A stretch of DNA of 64,000 nucleotides. Origin: an uncultured Clostridia bacterium (GTDB lineage: Bacteria > Bacillota > Clostridia > Oscillospirales > JAAYOS01). Location of the stretch: contig CANQDU010000002.1 in assembly GCA_947593925.1 (NCBI GenBank), positions 124,001 through 188,000 of the forward strand, given 5' to 3'. The first letter of the stretch is position 1, and each line of letters opens with the position of its first letter. Both the position numbers and the translations under genes were made by a program. The notes beneath the pieces were generated by a model. The model worked only from the letters and a program-made list of their open reading frames with translations, did not search any database and was not told the origin of the DNA. This document shows, one piece after another, positions 7,282-42,223 of this stretch.

Positions 7282-9378
7282 CTATCTTACACTGAACAGC
7301 AGATCCGCGTACGACGGGAACGGCCAATACTTCTTTGAGGTGACGGTCTCGGCCTCGTCGCAGACGCGGCGGAGGTCGGCCATCCTTGCGATGACGACGT
7401 CGCGGATGTAGTTTGCCTCGTCTCCTATCTCGCCCTTTGAATCTATCTCGGAGACGGCGGCGTCGAGCGCATCGGCGGCCTCGGCTATGCCGTCGAGGAG
7501 GCCGCTGAGCTTACGCACAAGCGCAGTTTCGTAGGCGCACTCTATCGAGGGATCGACGGCGCGCTTCGCCGCGACAGAGCCCGCGAGCTCGGCGGAGTAC
7601 GCCTCGACGGCGGGGGCTATCTGCGTCCTTGCCATGCCGCTCATGGTGTTTGCCTCGATGGTGACGGTCTTGCAGTAGTTCTCGAGGATTATCTCGTAGC
7701 GGCTGCGGAGCTCGGTGAGGGTGTAGACGCCGTGCGAGGTGAGCATATCGACGTTCTTCTTGTCGAGCAGGTGTGGCAGGCAGTCCGGCGTTGTTCGGTA
7801 GTTGAGAAGGCCGCGCTTCTCGGTCGCTTCCTCTATCCATGCGTCGTCATAGCCGTTGCCGTTGAAGATTATCTTCTTGTGGTCCTTTATCGTCTTCTTT
7901 ATCATCTCGCCGAGGGCGGTCTTGAAGTCGTCCGCGGCCTCGAGACGGTCGGCGTATATCCGCAGGCTCTCCGCGACGGCGGTGTTCAGCATGACGTTTG
8001 CACACGCGATGCTGTCTGAGGAACCCACCATGCGGAACTCGAACTTGTTGCCGGTGAACGCGAAGGGCGAGGTGCGGTTGCGGTCGGTGGTGTCGCGGCT
8101 GAAGGTCGGCAGGACGTCCACGCCGAGCTTCATCGTCGTCTTTTCGACGCCCTTGTACGGCGTGTCGCTCTCTATGGCTTCGAGGACGGCGTTCAGCTCG
8201 TCGCCGAGGAACATCGACACGACGGCGGGAGGAGCCTCGTTCGCGCCGAGACGGTGGTCGTTTCCGGCGGTCGCGACGGAGATGCGGAGGAGGTCCTGAT
8301 AGTCGTCCACCGCCTTTATGACGGCGCAGAGGAAGAGCAGGAACTGCGCGTTGTCATACGGCGTCTCGCCGGGGGAGAGAAGGTTCACGCCGGTGTCGGT
8401 GGATATCGACCAGTTGTTGTGCTTGCCCGAGCCGTTGACGCCGTCAAACGGCTTCTCGTGCAGCAGGCAGACAAGCCCGTGCCTCTCCGCGACCTTCTGC
8501 ATTATCTCCATGGTGAGCTGATTGTGGTCGGTGGCGATGTTTGTCGTGGAGTATATCGGCGCGAGCTCGTGCTGGGCGGGCGCCACCTCGTTGTGCTCGG
8601 TCTTTGCGAGGATGCCGAGCTTCCACAGCTCCTCGTTGAGGTCCTCCATGTATTCGAGCACGCGCGGCTTTATCGCGCCGAAGTAGTGGTCGTCCATCTC
8701 CTGACCCTTCGGCGGCTTTACGCCGAAGAGCGTGCGGCCGGTGAAGCGCAGGTCGGGGCGCTTGTCGTACATCTCTTTTGTGATGAGGAAGTATTCCTGC
8801 TCCGGCCCTACCGAGCTGCGGACACACTTCACAGTGTCGTTGCCGAAGAGGCGGAGGATGCGGAGCGCCTGGCGGTTGAGCGCGTCCATCGAGCGGAGGA
8901 GCGGGGTCTTCTTGTCGAGCGCCTCGCCGCCGTAGGAGCAGAACGCCGTCGGTATGCAGAGGGTCTTGCCCTTGATGAAGGCGTAGGAGGTCGGGTCCCA
9001 CGCGGTGTAGCCGCGCGCCTCGAAGGTCGCGCGGATGCCGCCGGAGGGGAAGCTGGACGCGTCCGGCTCACCCTTTATCAGCTCCTTGCCGGAGAAGTAC
9101 ATGATGACGCCGCCGTCCGGGGAGGGGGAGATGAAGCTGTCATGCTTCTCCGCCGTGATGCCGGTGAGCGGCTGGAACCAATGGGTGTAGTGCGTCGCGC
9201 CGTGGGCGACGGCCCAGTCCTTCATGGCGACGGCGACGGCGTCCGCCACCTCCGGGTCGAGCTGCGCGCCCTCGTCTATCGTTCTCCTGAGGGAGCTGTA
9301 TACGTCTGCGGCGAGAGTCGCCTTCATGACGCGGTCGTCGAACACAAGGCTGCCAAAATAGTCGGGTATGTTGCTCAT
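7282..9378 (-). CDS. glnN: Glutamine synthetase type III
   Basis: 698-residue type III glutamine synthetase, which makes glutamine from glutamate, ammonium and ATP as a large dodecamer in the cytoplasm. Length and motifs fit GSIII: the N-terminal [16 protein letters not shown], the glutamate/metal segments [11 protein letters not shown] and [18 protein letters not shown], the [12 protein letters not shown] loop, and the [17 protein letters not shown] stretch. The frame stays open far upstream to 10299 only because of high GC; that extension overlaps another gene. The ATG at 9378 has GGGAG 10-12 bases before it and gives the family N-terminus. It is transcribed alone from 9485-9513 through an attenuator (9426-9466) with an ANTAR-type hairpin, so expression probably follows nitrogen status together with the divergent glt operon. 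Confidence 0.95.
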
Positions 9379-9425
9379 ATTCTTTGCTTCTCCCTTTCGC
9401 TGATGTCCGAAGTGGTGCTGCGGAC

Positions 9426-9466
9426 AAAAAATGAGGCGTCTTCGGTGCCGGAGCACCAAAGACGCC
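9426..9466 (-). terminator. Leader attenuator of glnN
   Basis: In the minus-strand leader GGCGUCUUUGGUGC, loop UCCG, GCACCGAAGACGCC (14 pairs, one U-G; plus coordinates 9435-9466) is followed by CAUUUUUU. It is an intrinsic terminator placed between the promoter and the start codon of glnN, with about 50 bases left before the gene. Confidence 0.8.
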
Positions 9467-9475
9467 TTTGCCTTT
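9458..9475 (-). promoter_or_regulatory. ANTAR-type antiterminator hairpin in the glnN leader
   Basis: Minus strand: AAAGGC, hexaloop AAAGGC, GUCUUU (pairs A-U, A-U, A-U, G-C, G-U, C-G from base to loop). The loop has A at position 1 and G at position 4, the signature of RNA hairpins bound by ANTAR proteins. Its 3' arm is part of the 5' arm of the terminator at 9435-9466, so the two cannot form together. The predicted start site lies only 3 bases before the stem. A second canonical hairpin is not evident. Confidence 0.65.
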
Positions 9476-9484
9476 ACGGAACGA

Positions 9485-9513
9485 ATTATACGCCGGAAAA
9501 TTCGGTTTGTCAA
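9485..9513 (-). promoter_or_regulatory. Sigma-A promoter of glnN, perfect consensus
   Basis: Minus strand TTGACA (9508-9513), 17 bases, TATAAT (9485-9490). A perfect promoter followed by an attenuator implies that regulation is by termination and not by initiation. Confidence 0.8.
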
Positions 9514-9553
9514 CAGATTTTTTTGCGGACGGGGCGAGACCGTTACTTCCGCC

Positions 9554-9582
9554 TTGACAATGCTCCGGCGGCGGGATATAAT
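9554..9582 (+). promoter_or_regulatory. Sigma-A promoter of the glt-glnA operon, perfect consensus
   Basis: TTGACA (9554-9559), 17 bases, TATAAT (9577-9582). Predicted start near 9589, the first base of the ANTAR-type hairpin. Confidence 0.8.
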
Positions 9583-9588
9583 GTAGAA

Positions 9589-9612
9589 GAAATGAGCAAT
9601 GGCGTTCATTTC
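9589..9612 (+). promoter_or_regulatory. ANTAR-type antiterminator hairpin in the glt operon leader
   Basis: GAAAUGAGC (9589-9597), hexaloop AAUGGC (9598-9603), GUUCAUUUC (9604-9612): nine pairs with one G-U next to the closing C-G, the same layout as in the glnN leader. Loop position 1 is A and position 4 is G, as required by ANTAR proteins. The 3' arm is reused as the 5' arm of the terminator at 9602-9657. A second A1/G4 hairpin is not seen: the next small stem has a five-base loop. Confidence 0.75.
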
Positions 9613-9657
9613 GGCGGGGCAGCATGCCGCGCCGAAATGGGCGCTTTTATTTTTTTC
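9602..9657 (+). terminator. Leader attenuator of the glt-glnA operon
   Basis: GCGTTCATTTCGGCG (9602-9616) pairs with CGCCGAAATGGGCGC (9630-9644), 15 pairs including two G-U, followed by TTTTATTTTTTT. It lies between promoter and first gene, so readthrough must be licensed by the alternative hairpin 9589-9612. Confidence 0.85.
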
Positions 9658-9675: not shown

Positions 9676-10773
9676 ATGAAGCTTGAAGGCGAGGTGCGCA
9701 TCCCATCGGGGTGCGCGATAGCCGCCGTCATCTCGCGGGAAGGGAAGAAGATGACGGGAGAACTCATAACAAACGCCATGAAGCCTATGCACGACCGCTC
9801 CAACGGGCTCGGCGGCGGCTTTGCGGGCTACGGGATATATCCCGAATACAAGGAGCTGTACGCGCTGCACATCTTCTTTGACGACCGCACGGCGCGCGAG
9901 AACTGCGAGCGCTTCCTTGAGAAGCGGTTCGAGATAGTCCAGTCCGAGATAATCCCCACGCGAAAGATACCCGCCATCACCGACGAGCCGATAATCTGGC
10001 GCTACTTCGTCGCGCCGCTGAAGAGCGTCCTCGCGTCGGTGCAGCTCGACGAGAAGGCGTTCGTCGCGGAGACGGTGATGAAGATAAACTCGGAGGCGGA
10101 GGGCGCTTACGTCTTTTCGAGCGGGAAGAACATGGGCGCGTTCAAGGCGGTGGGATTTCCCGAGGACGTCGGCGAGTTTTACAAGCTCGAGGAGTACGAT
10201 GGCTACTCCTGGACGGGTCACGGCCGGTACCCCACGAACACACCCGGATGGTGGGGCGGCGCGCACCCGTTCACGCTGCTCGACTACTCGATAATCCACA
10301 ACGGCGAAATATCCTCCTACGACGCGAACCGCCGCTACATAGAGATGTTCGGCTACAAGTGCACCCTCCAGACCGACACCGAGGTCATGACCTATATCAT
10401 GGACTATCTGCTCCGGGTGCAGGGCCTCACGCTCGAGGAGGCGTCCGCCGTCATCGCGGCGCCGTTCTGGAGCACGATTGCAAACAAGCCGAGCGAGGAG
10501 GACAGGAGACTCAACACCTACCTCCGCACGGTGTATTCGAGCCTGCTCGTGACGGGGCCGTTCTCGATAGTCTTCGGCTTCACCGGCGGACTGATGGCCT
10601 TAAACGACCGCCTCAAGCTCCGCTCGATGGTCGTGGGCGAGAAGGACGACCGGGTGTTTATCGCAAGCGAGGAGGCCGCCATACGCACGATGGAGCCGGA
10701 CGTGGGCGAGATACGCGCGCCGTTCGGCGGCGAGCCGGTCATAGTCAGAGTGAAGGAGGGCGTGGAGCTTTGA
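9676..10773 (+). CDS. Glutamate synthase domain 1: class II glutamine amidotransferase subunit
   Basis: 365-residue Ntn-type glutaminase that frees ammonia from glutamine for the FMN subunit encoded next. Seen: the candidate N-terminal nucleophile region [10 protein letters not shown] (Cys13), the [16 protein letters not shown] segment, [11 protein letters not shown], the oxyanion motif HNGEISSY and QTDTEVMTY. In class II amidotransferases the cysteine must become residue 1, so a 12-residue propeptide would need removal; other clostridial split forms look alike in my memory, but I cannot verify this here. First gene of the operon, behind the attenuator. The next gene starts on its TGA codon (TTGA overlap). 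Confidence 0.9.
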
Positions 10774-12278
10774 GCGCGGTAGATTTCATATTTCCCGAGT
10801 TCGAGGTCGTTCGGAACAGCGACAGGTGCATCGCCTGCCGCGTCTGCGAGCGGCAGTGCTCGAACAAGGTACACAGCTACAACGAGGAGCGCGGGGCGAT
10901 GCTCTCGGACGAGACGAAGTGCGTCAACTGTCAGCGCTGCGTCTCGCTCTGCCCGACGCGGGCGCTGAAAATAGTAAAGAGCGACTGCACCTTCCGCGAG
11001 AACGCGAACTGGCAGCCGGACACGATAAAGCAGGTGTACAGGCAGGCGTCGAGCGGCGGCGTGCTGCTCTCGGCCATGGGCAACCCCAAGCCCCAGCCGG
11101 TCTACTGGGACAGAATACTCATAAACGCCTCGCAGGTCACAAACCCCTCCATCGACCCGCTGCGCGAGCCGATGGAGACGCGCGTGTTCCTCGGCAAGAA
11201 GCCCTCGCGCACCGAGCGCGGCGCGGACGGAAGGCTCAAAACCGAGCTCTCCCCGCAGATAGACCTCTCCATGCCGGTGATGTTCTCCGCGATGAGCTAC
11301 GGCTCGATAAGCTACAACGCGCACGCTTCGCTCGCGCGCGCCGCCGAGGCGCTCGGGATATGCTACAACACCGGCGAGGGCGGACTTCACGAGGACTTCT
11401 ACCGCTACGGAAAGAACACGATAGTCCAGGTGGCGTCCGGACGCTTCGGCGTCCACAAGGACTACCTCGAGGCCGGCGCGGCGATAGAGATAAAGATGGG
11501 TCAGGGCGCAAAGCCCGGCATCGGCGGTCACCTGCCCGGCACGAAGATAGTGGGCGACGTCTCGCGGACGAGGATGATCCCCGAGGGCTCGGACGCCATA
11601 TCTCCCGCTCCTCACCACGACATCTACTCGATAGAGGATCTGCGTCAGCTCGTCTACTCGCTCAAGGAGGCGACGGCGTACAAAAAGCCCGTCATAGTCA
11701 AGGTCGCGGCGGTTCATAACATCGCCGCCATCGCGAGCGGCATCGCGCGGAGCGGCGCGGACATAATCGCGATAGACGGCTACCGCGGCGGCACCGGCGC
11801 CGCGCCGACGCTCATTCGCGAGAACGTTGGCATACCGATAGAGCTCGCGCTCGCCGCCGTAGACAGCCGCCTGCGCGACGAGGGAATACGCGGCAACGTG
11901 TCGCTCGTCGTTGGCGGAAGCATCCGCAGCGCCGCGGACGTCGTCAAGGCGATTGCCTTGGGCGCGGACGCATGCTACGTCGCGACGGCGGCGCTGCTCG
12001 CGCTCGGGTGCCACCTCTGCCGCACCTGCAACACCGGCAACTGCAACTGGGGGATAGCGACACAGCGCCCGGAGCTCGTGAAGCGCCTGAACCCGGATAT
12101 AGGCAGCGAGCGGCTCATAAACCTCATGACCGCGTGGCGGCACGAGATAATGGAGCTGATGGGCGGCATGGGTATAAACTCGATAGAGGCGCTGAAAGGC
12201 AACCGCATGATGCTCCGGGGCGTCGGCCTCAACGAAAAAGAACTCGGGATACTCGGTATCTCTCACGCGGGGGAGTAG
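10770..12278 (+). CDS. Glutamate synthase FMN core subunit (domain 2) with N-terminal ferredoxin domain
   Basis: 502-residue catalytic core that condenses ammonia with 2-oxoglutarate on FMN to form glutamate. Residues 15-75 carry two 4Fe-4S motifs (CIACRVCERQC...; CVNCQRCVSLCP). The FMN barrel follows with MPVMFSAMSYGSIS, NTGEGGLHEDF, IEIKMGQGAKPGIGG, KVAAVHNIAAIASG and DGYRGGTGAAP. The CHLCRTCNTGNC stretch near residue 415 binds the 3Fe-4S cluster of glutamate synthases. The start is a TTG at 10770 overlapping the previous stop, with GGAGGG 10 bases before; the frame is open upstream but overlaps gene 1. Translational coupling with the amidotransferase is expected. Confidence 0.93.
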   Translation: MSAVDFIFPEFEVVRNSDRCIACRVCERQCSNKVHSYNEERGAMLSDETKCVNCQRCVSLCPTRALKIVKSDCTFRENANWQPDTIKQVYRQASSGGVLLSAMGNPKPQPVYWDRILINASQVTNPSIDPLREPMETRVFLGKKPSRTERGADGRLKTELSPQIDLSMPVMFSAMSYGSISYNAHASLARAAEALGICYNTGEGGLHEDFYRYGKNTIVQVASGRFGVHKDYLEAGAAIEIKMGQGAKPGIGGHLPGTKIVGDVSRTRMIPEGSDAISPAPHHDIYSIEDLRQLVYSLKEATAYKKPVIVKVAAVHNIAAIASGIARSGADIIAIDGYRGGTGAAPTLIRENVGIPIELALAAVDSRLRDEGIRGNVSLVVGGSIRSAADVVKAIALGADACYVATAALLALGCHLCRTCNTGNCNWGIATQRPELVKRLNPDIGSERLINLMTAWRHEIMELMGGMGINSIEALKGNRMMLRGVGLNEKELGILGISHAGE

Positions 12279-12283
12279 AGAGA

Positions 12284-12712
12284 ATGAAGAGAGTATATGT
12301 AAACGAGGAATGGTGCCTCGGCTGTCACCTCTGCGAGTACAACTGCGCGTTCGCAAACTCCGGCAAGCCGGATATGGCGACGGCGCTGAAGGGCAAGCCC
12401 ATATATCCGAGGATACACATCGAGGAGAACGACAAGATCTCCTACGCCGTGTCCTGCCGCCACTGCACCGACCCTATCTGCGTGAAGAGCTGCATCGCGG
12501 GGGCGCTTCGGCAGGAGGACGGCGTGATACGCATAGACCGCGAAAAGTGCGTCGGCTGTCTCACCTGCGTACTTGTCTGTCCCTACGGCGCGCTCGCGCC
12601 GGACGGGGACGGCGTCATGCAGAAGTGCGAGCTCTGCCTGCAGAACTCCTGCGGCGAGCCGGCGTGCGTCACGGGATGCCCGAACAGGGCGATAGTCTAC
12701 GAGGAGAGGTGA
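12284..12712 (+). CDS. 4Fe-4S ferredoxin subunit (HycB/DmsB-like) of the glutamate synthase complex
   Basis: 142-residue electron-transfer protein with four cysteine clusters: CLGCHLCEYNC, CRHCTDPICVKSC, CVGCLTCVLVCP and CELCLQNSCGEPACVTGCP. This is the polyferredoxin layout of DmsB/HycB-type subunits. By position it should pass electrons between the flavoprotein encoded next and the FMN core encoded before. GGGGGAG precedes the ATG at 12284, six bases after the stop of the core subunit. Confidence 0.9.
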   Translation: MKRVYVNEEWCLGCHLCEYNCAFANSGKPDMATALKGKPIYPRIHIEENDKISYAVSCRHCTDPICVKSCIAGALRQEDGVIRIDREKCVGCLTCVLVCPYGALAPDGDGVMQKCELCLQNSCGEPACVTGCPNRAIVYEER

Positions 12713-12716
12713 CGGG

Positions 12717-13958
12717 ATGAAGAAATATGTGATAATCGGGAACGGGACCGCCGCCGCGGGTTGCATAGAGGGCATACGCTCGGCGGATGCGGAGGGCGCG
12801 ATAACCGTCGTCTCGGAGGAGCGCCGCCCGGTCTATTGCCGCCCGCTCATATCCTACTTCCTCGAGGGCAAGACGACTCAGGAAAAGATGAACTACCGCC
12901 CGGACGACTTCTATGAAAAGAACGGCTGCGAGGTGCTCTACGGCAGGAGAGCCGTCCGAATAGACGCGGAGCATAAGACCGTCACGCTCGACGACGGCGC
13001 GGCGCTCGCGTATGACGCGCTGTGCGTCGCCTCCGGCTCCTCGCCGTTCGTGCCGAGGTTCGAGGGGCTTGAGACGGTGAAGAACCGCTTCTCGTTTATG
13101 ACGATGGACGACATGTTCGCCCTCGACGCGGCGGCGGACGAAAAGAGCCGCGTGCTCATCGTCGGCGCGGGACTCATCGGACTGAAGTGCGCGGAGGGAC
13201 TGCACGGCCGCGTCGCGGAGATAACGGTCTGCGACCTTGCGCCGAGGGTGCTCTCGAGCATCCTTGACGACAGCGCCGCCGCGCCGGTGGAGGAGTGTCT
13301 GAAAAGAAACGGCATACGCCTCATGCTGTCGGAGAGCGTCGCGCGCTTTGAAGAAAACCGTGCCGTCATGACCGGCGGCGGAACGGTGGATTTCGACCTG
13401 CTCGTCCTCGCGGTGGGCGTCCGCGCGAACAGCGCGCTTGTGAGTGACGCCGGCGGGGAGACGGATCGCGGCATCGTCGTTGACCACCGGATGCGCACTA
13501 GCCTGCCGGAGGTTTTCGCCGCGGGGGACTGCACCGAGAGCGAGGACATATCCTGCGGCAAGCGGAAGGTCATGGCGATACTCCCGAACGCATACATTCA
13601 GGGGCACTGCGCCGGCGTGAACATGGCGGGCGGAGACGAGACGTTTGACAAGGCCGTGCCGATGAACTCGATAGGCTTCTTCGGCCTGCACATAATGAGC
13701 GCCGGGACATGCTCCGCCGAGGACTCGGAGGTGCTCGAGGAAAAGACGGACGGCGGGCTGAAGCGGTTCTATCTGAAGGACGGCCGCCTCGCGGGCTACA
13801 TCCTCGTCGGCGGCGCGGAGAGAGCGGGCATATACACGTCTCTCATACGGGAGAGGACGCCGCTCTCGGAGGTGGACTTCGAGCTTCTGAAAAAAACCGC
13901 GACGACCGCCGCATTTTCTCCCGAAACCCGCAGAAAAAAGTTCGGAGGTGTGGTATAA
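12717..13958 (+). CDS. FAD-dependent pyridine nucleotide-disulfide-type oxidoreductase, glutamate synthase electron input
   Basis: 413 residues. An N-terminal FAD fold begins KKYVIIGNGTAAAGCIEGI, and VYCRPLISYFLEGK follows as in NirB/rubredoxin-reductase-like proteins. The NAD(P) fold is at RVLIVGAGLIGLKCAEGL (near residue 142), and the FAD-binding ATG-like motif is PEVFAAGDCTES. It lacks a CxxxxC active disulfide. Probable role: moving electrons from NAD(P)H or ferredoxin to the synthase through the polyferredoxin. GAGGAGAGG lies before the ATG. It overlaps the next gene by one base (TAATG). Confidence 0.9.
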   Translation: MKKYVIIGNGTAAAGCIEGIRSADAEGAITVVSEERRPVYCRPLISYFLEGKTTQEKMNYRPDDFYEKNGCEVLYGRRAVRIDAEHKTVTLDDGAALAYDALCVASGSSPFVPRFEGLETVKNRFSFMTMDDMFALDAAADEKSRVLIVGAGLIGLKCAEGLHGRVAEITVCDLAPRVLSSILDDSAAAPVEECLKRNGIRLMLSESVARFEENRAVMTGGGTVDFDLLVLAVGVRANSALVSDAGGETDRGIVVDHRMRTSLPEVFAAGDCTESEDISCGKRKVMAILPNAYIQGHCAGVNMAGGDETFDKAVPMNSIGFFGLHIMSAGTCSAEDSEVLEEKTDGGLKRFYLKDGRLAGYILVGGAERAGIYTSLIRERTPLSEVDFELLKKTATTAAFSPETRRKKFGGVV

Positions 13959-14680
13959 TGACTGTACTGGACGCAAACGGCCTCGACTTCAGGACGCTCG
14001 GCGAGCGCGTGAGAGCCGCCGGGGGCGACGTCAGGATAAATAACTGCTGCGGACAGAGGTTCATAGGCGCGGGAATGTCCGCGAGAAATATCCGCATAGA
14101 CGGCATTCCGGGCAACGCGCTCGGCGCGTATCTGGACGGCGCGGAGATAACCGTTCACGGCAACGCGCAGGACGCCGTCGGGGACACAATGAACGACGGA
14201 AGGATAGTCATTCACGGCAGCGTCGGCGACGCCGTCGGATACGCCATGCGCGGGGGAAGCATCTTCGTCCGGGGCAACGCCGGCTACCGCGCGGGCATAC
14301 ACATGAAGGAGTACAAGGACAAGGTGCCGCTGATGGTCATAGGCGGCTGCACCGGGAGCTTCCTCGGGGAGTATCAGGCGGGCGGCGTCATAGTCGTCCT
14401 CGGGCTCGGCGCGAACGGACGGAGGATAGTCGGCAACTTCTCCTGCACGGGCATGCACGGCGGAAAGCTGTTTCTGCGCGGAGACGGGCGCGACGTTCTC
14501 TTTCCGGCGCAGGTGACCGCCCGCCCCGCAGAGAAGGCGGACATGGCGGAGCTTCGGAAGTACGTCGCGGAATACTGCGCGCTCTTCGGCGCGGACGAGG
14601 AGGAGATACTGTCGTCTCCGTTCACAGTCGTCACGCCGGACAGCAAAAACCCATACAAGCGCATGTATGTCTCAAACTGA
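13958..14680 (+). CDS. Glutamate synthase domain 3 (GXGXG beta-helix) subunit
   Basis: 240 residues made of the right-handed beta-helix that closes glutamate synthases. The repeats are visible as NCCGQRFIGAGM, GIPGNALGAYLDGAEI, GNAQDAVGDTMNDGRIVIHG, GSVGDAVGYAMRGGSI and GNAGYRAGIHMKEY. The helix is structural and helps position the amidotransferase and FMN core in one-chain enzymes. Here it is a separate gene, as in archaeal and clostridial split forms. Start overlaps the previous stop, with CGGAGG nearby. Confidence 0.92.
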   Translation: MTVLDANGLDFRTLGERVRAAGGDVRINNCCGQRFIGAGMSARNIRIDGIPGNALGAYLDGAEITVHGNAQDAVGDTMNDGRIVIHGSVGDAVGYAMRGGSIFVRGNAGYRAGIHMKEYKDKVPLMVIGGCTGSFLGEYQAGGVIVVLGLGANGRRIVGNFSCTGMHGGKLFLRGDGRDVLFPAQVTARPAEKADMAELRKYVAEYCALFGADEEEILSSPFTVVTPDSKNPYKRMYVSN

Positions 14681-14700: not shown

Positions 14701-15912
14701 ATGAAATACACGGAACAGGAAGTAATCCAATATGTGAACGAGGAGGATGTGAAGTTCATCCGCCTCGCGTTCTGCGACGTGTTCGGGAGGCAGAAAAACA
14801 TCTCGCTGATGCCGGGGGAGCTTCCGCGCGCGTTCGAGAACGGGATAACCTTTGACGGATCCGCCGTGCGCGGGTTCGGCGACGAGACACATTCCGACCT
14901 GCTGCTGCACCCCGACCCGCACACGCTCGCCGTCCTGCCCTGGCGGCCGGAGCACGGGCGCGTCGTGCGGATGTACTGCACGGTGACCTATCCCTTCGGA
15001 CGGCCGTTTGAGTGCGACACGCGCCGTCTGCTCATCCGCGCCGTCGAGGACGCGGAGAGGGCGGGCTGCAGCTTCTCCTTCGGCGCGGAGCAGGAGTTCT
15101 ACCTGTTTATGCAGGACGAGAACGGCGAGCCGACAAAGATACCCTACGACCGTGCGGGATATATGGACCTCGCGCCGGACGACAAGGGGGAGAACATCCG
15201 CCGCGAGATATGCCTTACCCTCGAGAAGATGGGCATACGTCCCGAGCGCTCGCACCACGAGGAGGGGCCGGGGCAGAACGAGATAGACTTCCGCTACTCC
15301 GACCCGCTTGCTGCTGCGGACGACGCGATGACATTCCAGACCGTCGTGCGGACGGTGGCGCACAGGAACGGTCTCGTCGCCGACTTCGGGCCGAAGCCGC
15401 TCGAGAACGCGCCGGGCAACGGATGCCACATAAACATGTCGGTGAAGTCAAAGAACGGCGCGGACGTCCTGCCGGAGACGATAGCGGGCATACTCGCAAA
15501 CGTCCGCTGCATGACCGCGTTCCTCAACCCGACGGAGGACTCCTACCGCCGCTTCGGAGGCCACAAGGCGCCGAAGTACATCTCCTGGTCGAGCGAGAAC
15601 CGCTCGCAGCTCGTGCGCATACCGGCGGCGGAGGGAGAGTACCGCAGGGCGGAGCTCCGTTCGCCCGACCCGCTCTCAAACCCGTACCTCGCCTACGCGC
15701 TGATGATATACGCGGGGCTTCAGGGCATAGAGCGCAAGCTCGCCCTGCCGATGGTGGCGGACTTCAACCTCTATCAGGCGTCCGAGGAGACGCTTGCGGG
15801 CTTCGAGAAGCTGCCGGAGAGCCTCGACGAGGCGCGCCGCGCGGCTCGCGAGAGCGAATTTATCAGGGAACACATTCCGAAGGCCATTCTTGACATCTAC
15901 TGCGGGAAATAG
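14701..15912 (+). CDS. glnA: Glutamine synthetase type I
   Basis: 403 residues, somewhat shorter than the usual 440. Beta-grasp N-terminus (DVKFIRLAFCDVFGRQKNIS), latch region GITFDGSAVRGF, metal/glutamate motifs SFGAEQEFYLF and HHEEGPGQNEIDF, the NGCHINMSVKS loop, and ATP/glutamate residues in SWSSENRSQLVRIP and RRAELRSPDP. No adenylylation-site tyrosine segment is evident. With the upstream subunits it closes a GS-GOGAT cycle in a single operon, while a second, type III enzyme is made from the divergent gene. A modest AGAGGGC site precedes the ATG. Confidence 0.94.
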   Translation: MKYTEQEVIQYVNEEDVKFIRLAFCDVFGRQKNISLMPGELPRAFENGITFDGSAVRGFGDETHSDLLLHPDPHTLAVLPWRPEHGRVVRMYCTVTYPFGRPFECDTRRLLIRAVEDAERAGCSFSFGAEQEFYLFMQDENGEPTKIPYDRAGYMDLAPDDKGENIRREICLTLEKMGIRPERSHHEEGPGQNEIDFRYSDPLAAADDAMTFQTVVRTVAHRNGLVADFGPKPLENAPGNGCHINMSVKSKNGADVLPETIAGILANVRCMTAFLNPTEDSYRRFGGHKAPKYISWSSENRSQLVRIPAAEGEYRRAELRSPDPLSNPYLAYALMIYAGLQGIERKLALPMVADFNLYQASEETLAGFEKLPESLDEARRAARESEFIREHIPKAILDIYCGK

Positions 15913-15950: not shown

Positions 15951-16550
15951 ATGAGCCTGAAGGAGCGCGTGTACAGCGTTCTTCTTGTCTCCGCGTCCGG
16001 AAATCTGAACTCCTCCGTGAAGTCCATGCTCCCCGAAGCATCCTACGACCCGGTGCGCACCGTCCCGAGCGTCGGCGCGGCGCGCCGCGCGGCGGCCGAG
16101 CGCTCCTACGACTTTGTCATAGTAAATTCCCCTCTGCCGGACGGTGGCGGTATCGACTTCGCCGCGGACGCATGCGGGCGGCAAGGCACGGTGGTGCTCC
16201 TGCTCGCGCGCGAGGACGTCTACGGCGAGGTGTACGACGCGGCGGCGGAGCACGGAGTGTTCCTGCTCCCGAAGCCGGTGTCGCGCTCGGCGTTCGCGCT
16301 CGCGCTCGGCTGGATGGCAAGCGCGCGGGAGAGACTTCGTTCCCTCGAGCGCAAGGAGCTCTCCATCGGCGAGAAGATGGAGGAGATACGCCTCGTCAAC
16401 CGCGCGAAGTGGCTGCTTATCGACCGTGAGAAGATGGACGAGCCCGCGGCGCACCGTTACATAGAGAAGCGCGCTATGGATATGTGCGTCCCGCGCAGAG
16501 CCGTCGCGGAGGAAGTGATAGGGCGCTACTCCGATCAGAGCCATACTTAG
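15951..16550 (+). CDS. ANTAR-domain antitermination regulator with degenerate receiver domain
   Basis: 199 residues. The first 120 have the receiver fold, but the phosphate site is gone: the acidic pair is replaced (SVLLVSASGN) and the acceptor aspartate position reads FVIVNSPLPDGG with Asn. The signature lysine is kept in LLPKPV. The last 55 residues are an ANTAR RNA-binding domain: an invariant Ala in NRAKWLLIDREKMDEPAAHR and ending KRAMDMCVPRRAVAEEVI. ANTAR proteins bind hairpins with A1/G4 hexaloops and prevent termination. Such loops occur in both leaders 6.3 kb upstream (9458-9475, 9589-9612), so this last operon gene probably controls its own operon and glnN. Very strong site GGAGGAGGGGAG before the ATG. 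Confidence 0.92.
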   Translation: MSLKERVYSVLLVSASGNLNSSVKSMLPEASYDPVRTVPSVGAARRAAAERSYDFVIVNSPLPDGGGIDFAADACGRQGTVVLLLAREDVYGEVYDAAAEHGVFLLPKPVSRSAFALALGWMASARERLRSLERKELSIGEKMEEIRLVNRAKWLLIDREKMDEPAAHRYIEKRAMDMCVPRRAVAEEVIGRYSDQSHT

Positions 16551-16590
16551 CGGATACGCAAAGCCGCGTGTTGCAGATACTCAAAACAGA

Positions 16591-35808: not shown

Positions 35809-36081
35809 GAAAACGCCCCCGACAGAAGGTCATCTTCTGTCAGGGGCGAATATGATCCGCGGTGCCACCCTGATTCGCGGCGCAGAGGCCGCGCACTTAG
35901 CGGGATACAGGCATATCCCCGGCAACTGACGTATGCCAACACGTCGCATGCTACTCGGCGTCATGCGCCTTTCACCGCGCCCTCGGAAGCCCATTCGGTC
36001 TGATGTTTTCTGCCGCGATCTCACCGTCCGCGGCTCTCTTTGAGAAAAGGGAAAAGACCTACTTACTCTTCTTCAACGGTT
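35809..36081 (-). promoter_or_regulatory. T-box riboswitch, tryptophan specific
   Basis: Minus-strand leader of trpE. The 14-base T-box AGGGUGGCACCGCG (35859-35872) is followed by a strong terminator (35809-35848, CGCCCCUGACAGAAG / CUUCUGUCGGGGGCG, UUUU). Stem I is seen as GAAG-AGUAAGUA-GGUC pairing with GACC-GAAUGGG-CUUC. The internal loop holds the AGUA motif on one side and the specifier UGG (Trp; 35991-35993) on the other. The antiterminator bulge UGGC would pair with an acceptor end whose discriminator is G, as in bacterial tRNA-Trp. Uncharged tRNA-Trp should therefore switch the operon on. Confidence 0.93.
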
Positions 36082-36087
36082 TAACAG

Positions 36088-41872: not shown

Positions 41873-42223
41873 GGGGGCGTACCGGTTTCGACGGGGACGC
41901 GGGTGCGTGATAAGCGGGTCGTGGCGCCCACCACGTTAAAAGGGCAACCTTTATAAATTAAGTAACGACAATAGTCTTGCTTACGCGGCCTAACTAAAGG
42001 CTGCCGTCCGCCCGGAGAGTACCGCGGCTCCGGCTCGGGCGTGATTTAGCGGTGAACGTGCCCCCGCAACGTCCTGCGCGGGGTGCATGAATTATCGGAC
42101 TACCGCTCCGCATAGCCCGCCGATCGGCGATGCGGGGAGGGAAGCTTAAACATTCGGCTGCACCCGGAGAAGATCGCGAGGAAGTGTTTTCGGACGGGGG
42201 TCCAACTCCCCCCGCCTCCACCA
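41873..42223 (+). ncRNA. ssrA: tmRNA
   Basis: 351-base transfer-messenger RNA. The 5' end GGGGGCG pairs with CGCCUCC before the CCA end, followed by the conserved ACCGGTTTCGACGGGGAC; the 3' end carries the T-arm GGGGGTCCAACTCCCCC and CCTCCACCA. The tag reading frame (41964-41993) encodes NDNSLAYAA then TAA, preceded by AGT as apparent resume codon, giving a proteolysis tag that ends in AA as expected. Confidence 0.96.

Follow-up and report, generated by a model that had tools for sequence, protein, structure and literature searches.

AmiR of Pseudomonas is controlled by AmiC and acts on a leader that carries two hairpins, and in Clostridium saccharobutylicum the ANTAR protein GlnR/NitR is encoded in a position adjoining glnA. 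In the EutV/eut system of Enterococcus faecalis, the two hexaloop hairpins P1 and P2 are both needed for antitermination in vivo, and lengthening of the linker between them abolishes antitermination (PMC3369931, PMC8934654). The linkers of eut leaders measure 5-12 nt, and EutV needs a C-G pair closing the loop together with a neighbouring R-U pair (PMC3369931). The ANTAR sites studied to date carry two hairpins. EutV nevertheless binds either P1 or P2 in isolation, in addition to the pair, and structural work on this protein reduced the minimal ANTAR site to one hexaloop and foresaw that single-hexaloop targets might exist (PMC8934654). Predicted ANTAR regulons of nitrogen genes have been described in Firmicutes, such as that of glutamate synthase in Desulfotomaculum reducens (PMC3369931).

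Two divergent leaders and their hairpins

Within the window (the whole stretch of 64,000 nt analysed here, from an uncultured Clostridia bacterium), two units run away from each other, glnN on the minus strand and glt-glnA-ANTAR on the plus strand (Table 1), and the promoters that a sequence-only reading of this DNA had described as perfect and divergent do in fact follow TTGACA-17-TATAAT at 12/12 positions each. The first base of the loop lies exactly 15 nt past the -10 box in the glnN and glt leaders alike, and because +1 is taken as ~7 nt past the -10 box, which makes both starts predicted ones, the predicted hairpin begins at or adjoining +1 in both leaders.

Table 1. Positions in the window of the genes, promoters, hairpins and terminators of the two units
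Feature	Position	Strand	Details
glnN, type III glutamine synthetase	7282-9378	-	Pfam GSIII_N, 264 bits
glnN intrinsic terminator	9424-9467	-	stem 9467-9434 plus U-tract; 5' arm made of loop GGC and hairpin 3' arm
glnN antiterminator hairpin (predicted)	9457-9476	-	arms 9476-9470 and 9463-9457, loop AAAGGC 9469-9464, 7 bp
glnN promoter	9485-9513	-	TTGACA 9513-9508, 17-bp spacer, TATAAT 9490-9485; 12/12 consensus
glt promoter	9554-9582	+	TTGACA 9554-9559, 17-bp spacer, TATAAT 9577-9582; 12/12 consensus
glt antiterminator hairpin (predicted)	9589-9612	+	arms 9589-9597 and 9604-9612, loop AATGGC 9598-9603, 9 bp
glt intrinsic terminator	9602-9657	+	stem ~9602-9644 plus U-tract; 5' arm made of loop GC and hairpin 3' arm
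Glutamate synthase, class-II glutamine amidotransferase domain (first glt gene)	9676-10773	+	Pfam GATase_2
Glutamate synthase core subunit	10770-12278 (start approximate)	+	ORF; conserved neighbour in relatives
Small ferredoxin-type protein, glt unit	12274-12712 (start approximate)	+	sequence read directly
Pyridine nucleotide-disulphide oxidoreductase, glt unit	12717-13958	+	Pfam Pyr_redox_2
GXGXG domain protein of glutamate synthase	13951-14680 (start approximate)	+	ORF; relatives
glnA, type I glutamine synthetase	14701-15912	+	
ANTAR antiterminator protein, degenerate receiver domain	15951-16550	+	PF03861, 56.2 bits

The loops read AAAGGC in the glnN RNA and AAUGGC in the glt RNA, with A1 and G4 present in both, and in each leader the loop is closed by a C-G pair followed by a G-U pair, as the earlier reading had it and as can be read directly from the letters. 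Folding confirms, in glnN as well as in glt, that the 3' arm of the hairpin is also the 5' arm of a strong terminator, which had likewise been claimed: folded with its terminator, the glnN leader reaches -30.3 kcal/mol (z -5.7) and the glt leader -41.5 kcal/mol (z -7.3), and the hairpins by themselves reach -5.3 and -10.4 kcal/mol, respectively. Because the 3' arm of the hairpin and the last bases of the loop form the base of the 5' arm of the terminator, the hairpin and the full terminator are mutually exclusive. In the glt leader, GCGCC-GAAAUG-GGCGC adjoins the U-tract (window 9629-9657), and a short terminator-like hairpin is still possible there when the antiterminator is enforced; due to this residual hairpin, readthrough of glt might be incomplete.

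Two hexaloop hairpins in the window have 7 bp or more and overlap a strong terminator; 0/25 dinucleotide shuffles gave such an element. Among the GCAANGGCGT sites present genome-wide (n=41), only the glnN and glt leaders combine a stem of 5 bp or more with an overlapping terminator. The source genome thus shows the element at these two sites only, the other promoter-linked hexaloops (L241 and L242) being 5-bp hairpins without a terminator. At L241 (contig C9, near 11948), the promoter is followed by a GGCGC-AAGGCC-GCGCC hairpin, and then by a Shine-Dalgarno sequence and an ATG; this site is possibly due to chance, or possibly a translational ANTAR site. A 7-bp hexaloop hairpin at L081, where no overlapping terminator was called, looks like chance, and the same holds for the loops at which only weak terminators were called (L079, L083, and positions 16560, 26352, 40693 and 61824 of the window). 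The Rfam scan recognised no family, and no riboswitch, at the leader site; elsewhere in the window it places a T-box leader (RF00230, 99 bits) at 35839-36085 on the minus strand and a tmRNA gene (RF00023) at 41873-42223 on the plus strand.

The ANTAR protein

The source genome (1.87 Mb, 95% complete) carries one ANTAR gene, which is the last of the glt-glnA unit. The score of its ANTAR domain (PF03861) is 56.2 bits, against a curated cut-off of 27.3, and its receiver domain scores under the Pfam cut-off. In an alignment with 20 relatives, the position of the phospho-acceptor Asp is taken by Asn59, which is invariant in 20/20; the acidic pocket of the receiver is replaced and Ser14 is invariant. 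Based on Asn59 and on the replaced pocket, we consider this protein an AmiR-like pseudo-receiver, and control by a kinase is unlikely. The AlphaFold model of the protein (pLDDT 89.8) has RNA-bound EutV (6ww6, TM 0.73) as its nearest structure by TM-score, with 1s8n and 1qo0 also among the near folds. When EutV was mapped onto the protein (the chain sequence having a numbering two higher than the paper's), K149, E160 and M172 of EutV corresponded to the invariant K153, E164 and M176, and Y164 to the invariant H168, a position where AmiR has His too; the RNA contacts R142, R175 and R177 of EutV are not kept. Nitrogen or glutamine status probably governs the activity of the protein via the AmiR-like pseudo-receiver, and because glnA lies immediately 5' of the ANTAR gene in about 29/34 of the relatives' loci examined, GlnA is a plausible signal partner.

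Proposed mechanism

From the anatomy of the two leaders, and from the conservation, covariation and co-occurrence that are described below, we infer a switch in which strong promoters would by default produce transcripts that stop at the terminator of the leader. One hexaloop hairpin would form from the first 25-30 nt of either RNA, and the ANTAR protein, once activated by nitrogen need, would grip this hairpin, contacting a flipped-out G4, and hold it for the short time until the polymerase reaches the U-tract, at which point glnN or glt-glnA-ANTAR would be read through, no upstream P1 being involved. Binding would block the terminator because the terminator base needs the 3' arm of the hairpin and the loop GGC, and the location of the ANTAR gene inside the glt-glnA unit would let the protein promote its own expression, in a positive feedback. 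That the ANTAR protein binds the single 5' hairpin, blocks the terminator and permits readthrough into glnN and into glt-glnA-ANTAR, with one hairpin being enough, is in our opinion highly likely.

One hairpin or two

In 70/72 sites the loop lies 13-17 nt past the -10 box, so that the hairpin begins at about +1 and there is no room for a canonical P1. At promoter-proximal sites, a second hexaloop upstream of the hairpin was never found, and the second units of glnN leaders have only the first unit upstream of them. The explanation that competes best with a one-hairpin switch is that the system is a dual-hairpin one after all, with the second hexaloop coming from a downstream unit of the same leader or acting in trans, given that EutV requires two hexaloops in vivo (PMC3369931) and that in at least a dozen relatives two full hairpin-terminator units are found in series on glnN. 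These units, however, lie 43-62 nt apart where measured, with a terminator between them, against linkers of 5-12 nt in eut; the source organism's own genus and nearly all the glt leaders seen have one hexaloop, and a search of its own glnN and glt leaders found no second hexaloop with an overlapping terminator. The serial glnN units are attenuators in series and not a P1-P2 pair, and the dual-hairpin explanation is, on balance, improbable. Leaders with serial units on glnN include L035, L039, L040, L042, L044, L139, L178, L181, L188, L200 and L201; the leaders of the own genus have one unit.

Compared with dual-hairpin ANTAR RNAs as a class, the leaders studied here have the A1/G4 hexaloop, the C-G pair with a conserved neighbour pair and the terminator-overlapping 3' arm, and they lack the tandem P1-P2 arrangement with its short linker. 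The single-hairpin form, which had been called unusual, is the rule in this group rather than an oddity of the source genome. If one hairpin is enough here, this would break with the EutV rule, and the glnN and glt leaders are natural places in which to expect antitermination by a single hairpin.

Conservation and co-occurrence with ANTAR genes

Relatives with an ANTAR homologue repeat this layout at glt and glnN, which are usually divergent: a promoter, a single hexaloop hairpin where the RNA starts, and a terminator that shares an arm with it. When related leaders were checked, the hexaloop hairpins of glt and glnN proved to be conserved in many families and in more than one order. The two mirrored copies, which the earlier reading had listed as unusual, are not peculiar to the source genome, as the divergent pair recurs widely. 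Within the order, the pattern of a -10 box followed by the hexaloop was found in 55/295 genomes, with ~15 matches in total for the reversed control. The element was present in 42/55 genomes with a close ANTAR relative (defined as E up to 1e-50) against 13/240 of the others (Fisher p ~6e-28, order, n=295); the 13 close-ANTAR genomes with no exact match to the pattern include some with weaker -10 boxes, such as G007. In G032, G040, G062, G171 and G262, the stems of the pattern matches are short or a terminator is missing, and these matches look like background. At the class level, a stricter glt-type pattern was matched in 21/391 genomes and never by the reversed-pattern control, and an ANTAR gene was present in 21/21 genomes with the glt-type element, against 196/391 overall. 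More than half of these genomes (12/21) fall outside the order, and a terminator-overlapping hexaloop is found at glt, at a glnN-type gene or at both in 9 of these 12, and at purC or purA in 3.

It could be argued that another RNA-binding protein or a small-molecule ligand reads the hexaloop, and that ANTAR is a bystander, as the element also occurs in a few genomes in which no ANTAR gene was detected (G219 and G087, at purA); these genomes, however, are incomplete drafts, and the strong co-occurrence, the adherence of the element to the exact A1/G4 and C-G closure rule of ANTAR targets, the neighbourhood of the ANTAR gene and the lack of an Rfam riboswitch at the site make this explanation very improbable.

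Stem covariation and loop constraints

Stems reach 5 bp or more in 86/104 distinct promoter sites (TATAAT, then AANGGC 13-17 nt downstream) against 46/2374 other AANGGC sites. In 90 hairpins for which promoter and loop were the only criteria, pairing at positions 2-6 of the stem is seen in 410/450 cells, compared to 298 on average and 325 at most for shuffles of the 3' arm, which leave relatedness in; the search pattern that fetched most of the loci in both tests had the loop and two pairs fixed. The second pair is G-U, A-U or G-C in 85/90 of the promoter-and-loop sites. In 96 distinct hairpins, loop A1 and G4 are invariant, both being required by the scan, and the C-G closure, G5 and C6 are counted as freely found, with the qualification that the C-G closure was among the selection criteria (together with a stem of at least 5 bp and A1/G4) in the survey of the relatives' leaders and in the set of 96. 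Compensatory change is seen in homologous glnN leaders, of which one group has the arms AAAGGC/GUCUUU and another ACAGC/GCUGU, and in glt leaders, with AUGAGC/GUUCAU or GUGAAC/GUUCAC.

These data also bear on the idea that the palindromes at the transcript start are DNA operators for a repressor common to both promoters, the terminators being incidental or acting alone. Both promoters do carry an inverted repeat that overlaps +1, a usual operator position, but the arms differ (AAUGAGC vs AAAGGC, and ACAGC in other orders), with only the loop and the closing pairs in common, and they change in compensatory fashion; moreover, G-U predominates at the second pair and would be a mismatch if the palindrome acted as DNA, the 3' arm also serves the terminator in family after family, and the occurrence of the element tracks ANTAR, so that we give a DNA operator hardly any credit. 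Control of both units by the ANTAR protein, as put forward in the sequence-only reading, is supported by the single ANTAR gene, the conserved leaders, the co-occurrence and the compensatory stems.

A possible wider regulon in relatives

Relatives carry the element 5' of other genes as well: pyrG (L143:4770), purF (L203), guaA (L212), amtB (L171), purC (L204, L205, L187 and L184), purA (L206-L209 and L183) and gdhA (L172 and L174). The elements of purC and purA occur in other orders too. Targets outside glt and glnN are glutamine- or nitrogen-dependent steps, and purF, purC, purA, guaA, pyrG, amtB and gdhA suggest a wider regulon. On the minus strand of L202 (G321), an ACAGC-AAAGGC-GCUGU hexaloop hairpin with a terminator lies 5' of a gene that, by eye, resembles asnA (aspartate-ammonia ligase). 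The purA leaders L208 (G219) and L209 (G087) carry the element in drafts that are 83% and 93% complete, respectively, and that yielded no ANTAR gene. Among the named relatives, several are assemblies from the rumen or the gut.

We believe it to be fairly likely that these leaders are part of a class-wide regulon of Clostridia, with a single hexaloop at the 5' end and a dispensable P1, in which nitrogen genes (glt, glnN, glnA, amtB and gdhA) and nucleotide genes (purF, purC, purA, guaA and pyrG) would be linked via an unphosphorylated pseudo-receiver, possibly informed by GlnA. In the literature that we compared, which leaves the Clostridium NitR/GlnR papers outside, neither the single promoter-proximal form nor nucleotide-synthesis targets were found described, and our results suggest that searches built on two hairpins overlooked a large regulon of nitrogen and nucleotide genes in Clostridia. 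They also suggest that pseudo-receiver ANTAR proteins use a nitrogen signal that does not depend on phosphorylation. With P1 being required for EutV in vivo (PMC8934654), the leaders described here make it directly testable whether one hairpin suffices.

Comparison with known systems

In several respects, the system resembles EutV/eut of E. faecalis (PMC3369931, PMC8934654), as it shares with it the A1/G4 hexaloop, the C-G pair beside an R-U pair and the 3' arm that overlaps the terminator, as well as a protein with a receiver, a coiled coil and an ANTAR domain. It differs in that one hairpin, located at the 5' end of the RNA, takes the place of P1 and P2, in that the receiver is a pseudo-receiver without a phospho-acceptor, and in that the genes concerned are those of nitrogen assimilation and nucleotide synthesis instead of eut. 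With AmiR of the Pseudomonas amidase operon it has in common a pseudo-receiver that is not controlled by phosphorylation and a His at the position of Tyr164 of EutV; however, no AmiC-type partner is seen here, and the constant neighbour is glnA. As in the nitrogen ANTAR systems of Firmicutes, the ANTAR gene is found beside glnA, and terminators in the leaders would control glutamine and glutamate synthesis. Whereas published ANTAR searches demanded two hairpins, the form found at glnN and glt is that of a single promoter-proximal hairpin.
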